The notes under the pieces are model-generated. The model was not told the origin of the DNA, made no database searches, and saw only the letters and a program-made list of their open reading frames with translations. 56,541 bases of DNA. Source: Ignavibacteria bacterium (GTDB lineage: Bacteria; Bacteroidota; Ignavibacteria; Tepidaquicellales; Tepidaquicellaceae). Location of the stretch: assembly GCA_016929695.1 (NCBI GenBank), contig JAFGII010000004.1, forward strand, positions 1 through 56,541, in the 5' to 3' direction. Position 1 is the first letter of the stretch. Each line of letters begins with the position of its first letter. Shown here piece after piece: positions 45,529 through 49,184 of the stretch. The position numbers and the translations under genes were made by a program.

Positions 45529-46206
45529 ATGGGCAAATTAATAATAGCAATTGATGGACCTTCAGGAACCGGTAAAAGTACAACAGCAAGATTACTTGCG
45601 GAGAAACTAAATCTGCCTTATGTAGACAGCGGAATATTTTACAGAGCAATAACATACTTACTGTTCAAGAACAAAATAAAGCCGGATGAAATCAAACGTA
45701 TAGAGCAAATTGCAAAAAAGATTAATTTAGAATTTAAAGACGAGGATGTATATTTAAACGGCATAAACGTTACGAAAGAAATCAGAACTCTCGATGTAAC
45801 AAACAGAGTAAGCAGTGTAAGTAAGATTAAAGAAATAAGAAAGATAATAGTTGAAAAATTAAGAAATTATGCGGGCAGCAGAGGAGTTGTAATGGACGGC
45901 CGGGATATCGGAACAGTGGTTTTTCCTGAAGCAAACTACAAATTTTATTTTTTCTGCGACCTAAACACCAGAGCCGCCAGAAGGCAGCAAGATTTTTTAG
46001 ACTTAGGGCATAAAATCCCTCTTAAAAAAATCCTACTTGAACTGAAAAAAAGGGATGAATTGGATAAAAACAGAAAAGATTCGCCTTTAAAAATTTCCGA
46101 TGATGCAATTGAACTTGACACGACCAATTTAATAATTGAAGAGCAGGTCGATTTTATATACAAAAGAATTGTTTCGGCAAATAATATGCTGAACAACGAA
46201 CTATAG
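45529..46206 (+). CDS. cmk: Cytidylate kinase
   Basis: The 225-residue protein has the P-loop IAIDGPSGTGKSTTARLLAEKL and the NMP-binding parts YVDSGIFYRAITYL. VVMDGRDIGTVVFPEANYKFYF contains the Arg-Asp pair that binds CMP/dCMP, and the LID region has RAARRQQD. It phosphorylates CMP and dCMP for RNA, DNA and CDP-lipid precursors. cmk upstream of rpsA is a widespread gene order, and here rpsA follows after 72 bases, which contain a complex leader structure. Confidence 0.97.
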   Translation: MGKLIIAIDGPSGTGKSTTARLLAEKLNLPYVDSGIFYRAITYLLFKNKIKPDEIKRIEQIAKKINLEFKDEDVYLNGINVTKEIRTLDVTNRVSSVSKIKEIRKIIVEKLRNYAGSRGVVMDGRDIGTVVFPEANYKFYFFCDLNTRAARRQQDFLDLGHKIPLKKILLELKKRDELDKNRKDSPLKISDDAIELDTTNLIIEEQVDFIYKRIVSANNMLNNEL

Positions 46207-46229
46207 AAGAAATTTTTCATAAATTTAAA

Positions 46230-46271
46230 CCTTTCGAAGATTATCCGATCGAAAGGAGATAAATCGGATAA
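46230..46271 (+). promoter_or_regulatory. rpsA leader with two mutually exclusive hairpins around a Shine-Dalgarno sequence
   Basis: The leader contains AAAGGAG at 46252-46258, an evident ribosome binding site in a window where most genes lack one. CCTTTCGA (46230-46237) can pair perfectly with TCGAAAGG (46249-46256), hiding its 5' part. Alternatively TTATCCGAT (46241-46249) pairs perfectly with ATCGGATAA (46263-46271), leaving AAAGGAG in a 13-base loop. The two stems share bases 46241-46249 and so exclude each other. The start codon follows at 46279, about 20 bases from the site. This fits a translational switch, possibly autoregulation by S1. Confidence 0.6.
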
Positions 46272-46278
46272 ATAAATA

Positions 46279-48399
46279 ATGACAGAAGAATTAGAATTAA
46301 ACAACAGTACCAAGGAAGAAAAGACTCCTCCCGAGGAAGTAAAAACTTCAGCGAAAGCAATAAGTGAGGATTACGATGAAGATGAATTTCAGCGTATGCT
46401 GAAGTTATACGAAAAGACTTTCAGCCTGATAAAGGAGAATGAACTGGTAAAAGGGAAAATAGTAGCGATTCACGGCGAAGATGTTCTTATTGACATCGGT
46501 TCAAAATCCGACGGAAGAGTCTCAATAAATGATTTCTCTTCACCGGAAGAATTGGTTGTAGGAAAAGAAATCGAAGTATTTCTGGAAAAAATTGAAGATA
46601 AAGAAGGTCAACTTGTTCTTTCGAAAAAGAAAGCCGATTCGATTAAGATGTGGGAAAAAATAGTCGAAGCGAATAAGAACGGTACCATTATACAGGGCAG
46701 ATGCCTGAGACGTATAAAGGGCGGATTTGTAGTAGATATCAACGGGTTAACAGCATTTCTGCCGGGCTCACAAATTGATACGAAACCAATCCGGGATTAT
46801 GACGAATACGTAGGTAAACTTATGGATTTCAAGGTTATAAAAATTAACAATGCAATAGAAAATATCATTGTATCGCACAAAGTACTGATTGAGGAGTCAA
46901 TGGCAGGACAAAGAGAAGAGTTACTTAAGACGATTAAAAAAGGTATGGTTTTAAAAGCAACAGTGAAAGCCATTACGGATTTCGGTGTTTTTGTAGACCT
47001 TGGCGGGCTTGACGGATTAATTCACATTACCGACCTTTCATGGGGCAGGATAAACCATCCGAGCGACGTAGTAAAACTTGACCAGGTTATTGACGTCTTT
47101 GTTATTGAATTTGATGAAGACAAGCAAAGAGTATATCTCGGATTAAAACAGTTACAGACTCATCCCTGGGAAAACATTCAGGAGAAATACAAAGTCGGTG
47201 ATAACGTATCGGGCAAAGTTGTTTCCCTTACAGAATACGGAGCATTTATCGAAATTGAGAAAGGTATCGAAGGGCTCATTCACATAAGTGAAATGTCCTG
47301 GACACAGCATATTACAAGTCCGAATCAAATGGTTACTATGGGACAACTTGTAGAAGCACAGATACTCAATATTGACTACGAAAACAGAAAACTTTCACTG
47401 GGAATGAAACAATTAACTCCGAATCCCTGGCAGAGTTTACTCGATAAATTTCCTATCGGTACAAAACAAAAAGGAAAAGTATGCAATATTACAAACTTCG
47501 GAATATTCGTGGAACTGGAAGAGGGTGTTGACGGACTCGTTCATATTTCCGACCTTTCCTGGACGAAGAAGATTCTCAACGTAAATGAGTTCGTGAAAAT
47601 AGGTGATAAAATTGAGGTAGTCATACTCGGTATTGATGTAGCCAATCAGAGAATTTCTCTCGGTCACAAACAATTATTTGAGAATCCCTGGGATAAACTG
47701 GAGGAAAAATATAAACTTGGATATGAAACGGACTGCAAAGTTATTAAACCGATTGATAAAGGTATTATCATTGAATTACCAGATTTAGTTGATGCTTTTA
47801 TTCCTGCTTCGCAATTCTCTATTTCAGCCATAAGAAACCTTTCTGAATTCTTCAAGCCGGGAGATATGGTAAAAGCAGAAATAATTGAATTTGACAAGAC
47901 GAATAAAAAAATTGTATTATCCGTTATAGAATATCTTAAAGATAAAGAACAAAAAGAAGTTGATGAATACATTACAAAATATAGACTTCCCAAGAAATTT
48001 ACAATAAAAGATATTGCGGAAAAAACGAGGAGTTATGAAGCCGAACAGATTGATTTCAGAATAGAAGATATAATAGGCGATGAAATGTCAACGGTTAATA
48101 CTCCTCCCGTTCAACCCCCAACAATTCAGTTCCCTCCTTCACAACCGGAAGTTACCGAACAGAAGGAAACTGCTCCGGAACAGAAGGTAACTGCTCCGGA
48201 ACAAAAGGAAATAACTCCGGAACTGAAGGAAATAGCCGAGCAGAAGGAAGTTACACCCGAACAGAAAGAAGAAACACCCGAGCAGAAGGATGTGATACCT
48301 GAACAGAACGATATCACACCCGAGCAGAAGGAAGTTACACCCGAACAGAAAGAAGAAACACCCGAGCAGAAGGAAATTAATCCTGACCAGAGCGTATAA
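46279..48399 (+). CDS. rpsA: 30S ribosomal protein S1 with a repetitive acidic tail
   Basis: The 706-residue protein has six S1 OB-fold repeats. Examples are LVKGKIVAIHGEDVLIDIG (domain 1), GMVLKATVKAITDFGVFVDLG (domain 3), VSGKVVSLTEYGAFIEIEKG (domain 4) and KGKVCNITNFGIFVELEEG (domain 5). S1 binds mRNA on the 30S subunit and helps start translation. After about residue 630 a tail of tandem PEQKE-type units replaces the usual end. Two copies of a 28-residue unit are encoded by an exact 55-base repeat. The leader carries a switch-like structure. cmk lies upstream; a terminator at 48432-48461 follows. Confidence 0.96.
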   Translation: MTEELELNNSTKEEKTPPEEVKTSAKAISEDYDEDEFQRMLKLYEKTFSLIKENELVKGKIVAIHGEDVLIDIGSKSDGRVSINDFSSPEELVVGKEIEVFLEKIEDKEGQLVLSKKKADSIKMWEKIVEANKNGTIIQGRCLRRIKGGFVVDINGLTAFLPGSQIDTKPIRDYDEYVGKLMDFKVIKINNAIENIIVSHKVLIEESMAGQREELLKTIKKGMVLKATVKAITDFGVFVDLGGLDGLIHITDLSWGRINHPSDVVKLDQVIDVFVIEFDEDKQRVYLGLKQLQTHPWENIQEKYKVGDNVSGKVVSLTEYGAFIEIEKGIEGLIHISEMSWTQHITSPNQMVTMGQLVEAQILNIDYENRKLSLGMKQLTPNPWQSLLDKFPIGTKQKGKVCNITNFGIFVELEEGVDGLVHISDLSWTKKILNVNEFVKIGDKIEVVILGIDVANQRISLGHKQLFENPWDKLEEKYKLGYETDCKVIKPIDKGIIIELPDLVDAFIPASQFSISAIRNLSEFFKPGDMVKAEIIEFDKTNKKIVLSVIEYLKDKEQKEVDEYITKYRLPKKFTIKDIAEKTRSYEAEQIDFRIEDIIGDEMSTVNTPPVQPPTIQFPPSQPEVTEQKETAPEQKVTAPEQKEITPELKEIAEQKEVTPEQKEETPEQKDVIPEQNDITPEQKEVTPEQKEETPEQKEINPDQSV
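48236..48374 (+). repeat. In-frame tandem repeat in the rpsA tail
   Basis: Bases 48236-48290 and 48320-48374 are identical over 55 bases, with a period of 84 bases (28 codons). Smaller degenerate PEQKE units (CCGGAACAGAAG-like) extend back to about 48170. The repeats keep frame, so they lengthen the acidic tail by whole units. Confidence 0.9.
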
Positions 48400-48431: not shown

Positions 48432-48461
48432 AACCCGGATGACAAACTCAACATCCGGGTT
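48432..48461 (+). terminator. Intrinsic terminator after rpsA
   Basis: AACCCGGATG (48432-48441) pairs with CATCCGGGTT (48452-48461), a perfect 10-base GC-rich stem with a 10-base loop, followed by TTTCTATT. It lies 33 bases after the rpsA stop. Confidence 0.88.
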
Positions 48462-48521: not shown

Positions 48522-49184
48522 ATGGCTATATACGGAAAAGACACGATAATTAAAATATATTTTGTATCCCTGTTGTTATTAGTGGCATCCCTGTTTATAA
48601 ATCATACTGCTGTAAAAATCATATTTTTAGTATTATGTCTTTTTTTAATACTTTTCACTTCATTTTTCTTCAGAGACCCTGCAAGAAAAATACCGAATGG
48701 TATTACAAACGAAGATGTTCTCTCACCGGCAGACGGAAAAATTGTTGAAATTAAAAAAATCAAGAATAAATACCCTGAACTGTTTTCCTGCAAAGAATTA
48801 TCACTGATAAGTATATTCATGTCTCCCCTGAATGTCCACGTTAACAGATTCCCTTTATCCGGAAAAATAAATTATTATAATTATATTAAAGGAAAATATG
48901 TTGTTGCTTTTAACGAAAAATCATCCGATGAAAATGAAAGAACTGAAATAGGTATCATCAGCGGTACAAACCAGATAGTTTTTATTCAGATTGCCGGTTA
49001 TGTTGCAAGGAGAATCGTCTGTAATATTAAAACCGAAGATTATGCCGTGGCAGGAGAAAGATTCGGTATGATAAAATTCGGTTCAAGAGTAGATATAATT
49101 TTTAAACCGGATACAAAAATACTGGTAAATTTACATGACAAAGTAAAAGCAGGTGTTTCTATTCTTGCAAAATTAACACGATAA
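48522..49184 (+). CDS. psd: Phosphatidylserine decarboxylase, short form
   Basis: Started at ATG 48522, the protein is 220 residues; an in-frame TTG at 48504 is less likely. Two N-terminal membrane helices lead to the decarboxylase part: EDVLSPADGKIVEI, FMSPLNVHVNRFPLSGKI and the GMIKFGSRVDIIF segment. There the Gly-Ser bond is the self-cleavage site that creates the pyruvoyl cofactor. It makes phosphatidylethanolamine from phosphatidylserine. The stop overlaps the pssA start by one base (TAATG), so the two successive steps of PE synthesis are translationally coupled. Confidence 0.94.
   Translation: MAIYGKDTIIKIYFVSLLLLVASLFINHTAVKIIFLVLCLFLILFTSFFFRDPARKIPNGITNEDVLSPADGKIVEIKKIKNKYPELFSCKELSLISIFMSPLNVHVNRFPLSGKINYYNYIKGKYVVAFNEKSSDENERTEIGIISGTNQIVFIQIAGYVARRIVCNIKTEDYAVAGERFGMIKFGSRVDIIFKPDTKILVNLHDKVKAGVSILAKLTR

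Follow-up and report, generated by a model that had tools for sequence, protein, structure and literature searches.

In this Ignavibacteria genome, the gene for ribosomal protein bS1 (rpsA) is preceded by two perfect complementarities and by the SD-like sequence AAAGGAG, which raises the question of whether, and by what fold, the leader governs the synthesis of S1, the protein with which the ribosome opens structured mRNAs. Within the window (the whole stretch of 56 541 nucleotides analyzed here), the exact repeats are CCTTTCGA (46230-46237) with TCGAAAGG (46249-46256) and TTATCCGAT (46241-46249) with ATCGGATAA (46263-46271). The sequence-only reading of this locus had placed both repeats, AAAGGAG (46252-46258) and the ATG (46279), and all of these positions are exact; it had also proposed that only one of the two helices can form at a time. 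We found instead that the two helices together are an H-type pseudoknot of two 8-bp stems, between which base 46249 may optionally be shared, because helix 2 takes its 5΄ arm from the loop of helix 1 and its 3΄ arm from the sequence downstream of helix 1. The RNA structure of the leader is well supported, and on balance we favor the view that it is a translational operator of rpsA, with S1 itself the likely signal. The features are as follows.

45529..46206, + strand: cmk (cytidylate kinase; PF02224, E 4.8e-67; TIGR00017 above cut-off)
46207..46229, + strand: A/U-rich single-stranded stretch, seen in the sequence, ending in UUUAAA right before the pseudoknot
46230..46237, + strand: stem 1, 5΄ arm CCUUUCGA (stem 1 covaries across 11 distinct leaders)
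46238..46240, + strand: loop 1, 3 nt, which would span the deep groove of stem 2
46241..46248, + strand: stem 2, 5΄ arm UUAUCCGA, within the loop of stem 1 and containing an anti-SD-like UCC (loop-shuffle p = 0.0004)
46249..46256, + strand: stem 1, 3΄ arm UCGAAAGG; 46249 is the sole base also contained in a 9-bp stem 2
46252..46258, + strand: AAAGGAG, the SD of the sequence-only reading, mainly in stem 1 and 20 nt from the ATG
46257..46263, + strand: loop 3, AGAUAAA, 7 nt, A-rich, which would span the shallow groove of stem 1
46264..46271, + strand: stem 2, 3΄ arm UCGGAUAA, ending 7 nt upstream of the ATG
46266..46268, + strand: proximal SD-like GGA at -13, in stem 2, conserved in family rpsA leaders
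46279..48399, + strand: rpsA, ribosomal protein bS1, 706 aa, six S1 domains (TIGR00717 and NF004953 above cut-off)
48432..48461, + strand: candidate terminator, a AACCCGGAUG/CAUCCGGGUU hairpin with a U-rich stretch after it, ahead of the gene at 48522

Profile matches for both genes place cmk directly upstream of rpsA, and the hairpin at 48432-48461, judged by its sequence, likely closes the cmk-rpsA unit as a terminator. The N-terminus of RpsA (MTEELE) is common to three relatives (G001, G002 and G010).

Because plain minimum free energy (MFE) folding cannot count both helices, folding of the leader, a check that had been suggested along with the switch, gave a divided answer: the MFE fold is ordinary (z -0.34), whereas the summed stacking energy of the pseudoknot (-26.6 kcal/mol) was equaled by none of 150 dinucleotide shuffles. 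Among 171 gene-upstream regions (272 kb of the same genome), rpsA ranked first for such a pseudoknot. The single hairpins in the window reach -9.2 kcal/mol (hairpin 1) and -8.6 kcal/mol (hairpin 2), and the pseudoknot outscores either of them even when charged a penalty near 10 kcal. Once the pair at 46249 is dropped, the two 8-bp stems abut and loop 2 is absent. We compared the rpsA leaders of 27 genomes from the same family as the window genome, the named relatives being metagenome-assembled genomes throughout (Ignavibacteria/Ignavibacteriae). In 16 of these 27 leaders (11 at <= -24 kcal stacking), we found a compact pseudoknot whose 3΄ arm lies 5-20 nt upstream of the start codon, compared with 12 of 329 other upstream regions from this genome and four relatives, none of which went beyond -20.6. 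The fold is restricted to rpsA within the regions examined.

Twelve leaders, representing five genera (g1, g3, g5, g6 and g12), showed the same topology with altered sequences, and their loop lengths are compatible with an H-type fold (L1, 1-6 nt; L2, 0-6 nt; L3, 5-11 nt). The 3΄ arm of stem 2 ends 6-16 nt upstream of the ATG in all 12, and in the 11 leaders other than that of the window the helices lie 1-6 nt apart and have no base in common. In relatives, stem 1 appears as CCCAAUAGA/UCUAUUGGG, CUUCUGC/GCAGAAG or CUCCUUCU/AGAAGGAG, and stem 2 as UUAUCC/GGAUAA, UCCGGUU/AACCGGA, CUUCCGG/CCGGAAG, CCGGUCA/UGGCCGG or CCGGUAAG, which pairs with UUUACCGG or, using a G-U, with UUUAUCGG. With stem 1 held fixed, stem 2 exceeded loop shuffles in 12/12 leaders (p 0.0004-0.037, for groups picked post hoc), and with one leader per genus and the non-significant genera counted, the Fisher combined p was 4e-7 over 11 genera. 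In most of the other genera tested, the pseudoknot was not significant by loop shuffles.

Covariation in relatives had been named beforehand as a way to check the proposed switch, and the pairs do covary. Among 11 distinct leaders from 5 genera, the covariation score was 0.615, compared with 0.217 for shuffled leaders and <= 0.207 for slid registers; the slid-register control partly enters constant spacers, so that the shuffles carry more weight. For this analysis, we aligned the arms structurally and kept the spacers constant (G006 stem 1 minus one bulged A); plain MAFFT alignment misplaced stem 1 in the leaders and was discarded. In the 11 structure-aligned leaders, 89.2% of cells were paired (69.2 when shuffled) and 38 cells were double-changed (13.6 when shuffled). 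Stem 1 provided the bulk of the covariation, with 100% of cells paired and changes on both sides in 6/7 pairs, and stem 2 showed double changes in 3/9 columns only, around an invariant CC/GG core that is what SD pairing would demand.

Regarding the element under control, the sequence-only reading had pointed to AAAGGAG as a rare SD site. The rarity is borne out: AAGGAG at -22..-4 was found in 2 of 159 ORFs of this genome, compared with 0.5 expected, and SD motifs show no clear enrichment here and are rare in the sampled family relatives; other Bacteroidota are likewise SD-poor (PMC9976891). AAAGGAG itself does not hold up as the target. In the window it arises from the CCUUU/AAAGG stem, and because its distance from the ATG is 20 nt and it is missing at the matching place in both genus mates (G001 and G002), the conserved regulated element is the proximal GGA near -13. 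GGA starting at -19..-9 was observed in 25/27 family rpsA leaders, most commonly at -13, against a background of 25 of 159 genes in this genome and 21 of 146 in relatives (about 15%). The 3΄ arm of stem 2 lies over this GG(A) at a normal distance from the start codon; thus helix 2, which had been thought to expose the SD and shorten its distance to the ATG, overlies the proximal GGA, which it would mask. A search of the assembly itself found no 16S rRNA gene, and the 16S tail GGATTACCTCCTTTCT was taken from relatives G012 and G023; AAAGGAGAUAA has one mismatch to this tail and is not conserved in the genus.

A conserved, covarying and SD-related leader in front of rpsA, where SD sequences are rare, makes it likely that this is a control element for S1 synthesis. 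To this extent the switch proposed earlier is upheld, while its mutual exclusivity and its AAAGGAG target are not. We propose that stem 1 would fold first and that its loop UUAUCCGA would next pair with UCGGAUAA ahead of the start codon, so that stem 2 would cover the GGA at -13, the probable SD element of rpsA. The closed pseudoknot would block 30S docking, and the melted one would allow rpsA translation. S1 on the 30S subunit could melt the pseudoknot; free S1 in excess of 30S uptake would attach to the A/U-rich stretch, the pseudoknot or both, and the site would then stay closed or occupied. We infer control of translation by the fold, the role of S1 as ligand and the direction of the feedback. 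S1 of E. coli is a translational repressor of its own mRNA and a high-affinity binder of pseudoknots (PMC10931766); such autorepression is described for gammaproteobacteria, S1 also binds A/U-rich RNA (PMC10931766), and S1 on the 30S subunit melts the rpsO pseudoknot (PMC3858243). The A/U-rich stretch at 46207-46229 is accordingly named here as a candidate S1 contact, and (C/U)UAAAC(C) is present in nearly all family rpsA leaders. The pseudoknot probably lets the cell adjust the amount of S1. It is a more tentative idea that the leader is a new device of S1 autoregulation, in which rpsA, within a lineage of mostly SD-less mRNAs, retains an SD under the lock of a pseudoknot, and this pseudoknot serves S1 both as ligand and as melting substrate; being both, the leader could read the balance between free and 30S-bound S1.

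The alternative that survives best is that the pseudoknot sets the rpsA level without S1 feedback, as a constitutive or temperature/Mg-sensitive brake, a standby structure or an mRNA-stability element. Such roles would be consistent with the strong conservation of the structure beside loop sequences that are hardly conserved, and no computed result points to a ligand. However, r-protein genes are commonly autoregulated, gammaproteobacterial rpsA is among them and S1 binds pseudoknots (PMC10931766); we therefore regard this explanation as possible but not probable. A rescue loop like that of rpsU is less plausible still. In that case, ribosomes lacking S1 or bS21 would still translate rpsA through its SD, and the pseudoknot would merely tune the level. 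It accords with the GGA/SD in 25/27 leaders of SD-poor genomes and with the SD use that bS21-less ribosomes of F. johnsoniae regain (PMC9976891). The extended SD of rpsU in Flavobacteriales is likewise a case of an r-protein gene retaining an SD in an SD-poor lineage; the available portion of that account describes control by bS21-free ribosomes and a long SD, and no pseudoknot. By contrast, the SD of rpsA is mainly short, and ribosomes without S1 should open the pseudoknot poorly, so that we consider this explanation unlikely.

The mutually exclusive switch of the sequence-only reading, in which AAAGGAG is buried by hairpin 1 and displayed in the loop of hairpin 2, is improbable, even though the lone hairpins are similar in energy (-9.2 and -8.6 kcal/mol) and share base 46249. 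This overlap is not conserved, given that the other 11 leaders with the pseudoknot have a 1-6 nt gap, in G001 and G002 hairpin 2 has little stability by itself (-3.7 versus -13.5 and -11.6), AAAGGAG is absent at that place from these genus mates, and at -26.6 kcal/mol the pseudoknot beats each hairpin even with the penalty of ~10 kcal. With one shared base in the window and none in 11 relatives, both helices form in the conserved topology. Other genera may nevertheless reach the same end by an either/or anti-SD stem. In G009, G013, G015, G016 and G017, the 5΄ arm of stem 1 can pair with the SD (p 0.01-0.07), and this alternative SD helix ends 12-13 nt from the ATG every time; the pairing would be a real either/or switch and a weaker second form of the control. 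The corresponding pairing with the SD region in the window was not significant (p 0.36). In G003 and G023, the second helix has just 4 bp, on the SD (CUGG with CCAG of CCAGGAG, and CCUC with GAGG, respectively), and was not significant by itself in loop shuffles.

A small-molecule riboswitch with an H-type fold, similar to preQ1-I or SAM-II, is very improbable. The fold logic is shared, in that helix 2 of an H-type pseudoknot takes up the SD (PMC11625349), and preQ1 class I riboswitches, type III especially, likewise build this helix from the SD and a loop anti-SD. These have a metabolite ligand and conserved pocket bases, whereas the rpsA leader has neither conserved loop bases for a pocket nor a family-model match, and its gene is ribosomal; we therefore did not assign it to the preQ1 or SAM-II classes. 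Rfam gave no match at the gathering threshold in the window and no relevant match at E <= 1 in ten loci, where unrelated sub-threshold matches lay elsewhere only. Chance complementarity in an AT-rich intergenic region, which would suit the unremarkable plain fold, is the least credible explanation in view of the shuffles, the genome rank, the loop-shuffle tests, and the pseudoknot specificity and covariation in relatives.

As a conserved covarying structured RNA located 5΄ of an r-protein gene, the element has the structural properties of an r-leader, and comparison with known systems suggests an r-protein leader with an SD-hiding pseudoknot and without an Rfam counterpart, as far as a literature search largely limited to papers outside subscription can tell. 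The E. coli rpsA leader, as a representative of gammaproteobacteria, resembles it in gene, cmk-rpsA neighborhood, structured A/U-rich leader and presumed control at the translation start. However, the gammaproteobacterial leader has a specific initiation-region fold without a canonical SD, in contrast to the H-type pseudoknot over an SD-like GGA observed here (PMC10931766), and there autorepression is lost when a strong SD is inserted (PMC10931766). We provisionally placed the present leader outside the gammaproteobacterial class because of its pseudoknot over GGA and because no Rfam leader model matched. The rpsO (uS15) operators of E. coli and mycobacteria are likewise r-protein mRNAs with a regulatory pseudoknot near the start, although they concern another gene and another ligand and no common sequence was noted; unlike the rpsA leader, the E. 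coli rpsO pseudoknot includes coding sequence and traps the 30S subunit. The Chlorobi S6:S18 r-leader (Eckert and Weinberg 2020) is likewise lineage-restricted within the FCB group and concerns different genes. S1 is not represented among the 20 r-leaders of PMC7247131, a paper that names neither rpsA nor bS1, and PMC2864571 does not refer to an S1 leader either.

In the sources found, S1 autoregulation is described for gammaproteobacteria only. If the proposed mechanism is true, the rpsA pseudoknot of Ignavibacteria would be a second architecture of S1 leader and a compact test of S1 sensing its own level, and it would suggest that lineages poor in SDs retain such elements where a switch is required.

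Several further observations were made at these loci. Following the S1 domains, the C-terminal end of RpsA (window 48120-48399) is a low-complexity PEQKEVTPEQKEE repeat tail, and the length of the rpsA open frame differs among complete relatives (589-750 aa). In most of these genomes, the apparent start codon of rpsU (bS21; L123, G000:C40 ~130-189; L119-L122) is TTG (LIKV); ahead of the gene stands AGAAAGAGGTAA or AAAGGGGTAA, an SD-like sequence that differs by a single base from a perfect complement to the 16S tail. Many f1 leaders (e.g. L011, L014, L017 and L023) carry a GC hairpin (e.g. GCCCG..CGGG) and AUUUAUAAACUAAA before the pseudoknot or stem, and this GC hairpin is absent from the genus of the window. 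The rpsA leaders of family f2 (L036-L044) differ, with a CUCC..GGGG hairpin, UUUAUUAAUUAAA and CGGAG 14-19 nt before the ATG, and their CUCC could instead pair with the SD. Finally, in the rpsA leader of G022 (L016), a 10-codon frame begins with an ATG 8 nt downstream of AGAAGGAG in the 3΄ arm of stem 1; this frame overlaps the rpsA start and is possibly a coupled upstream ORF.
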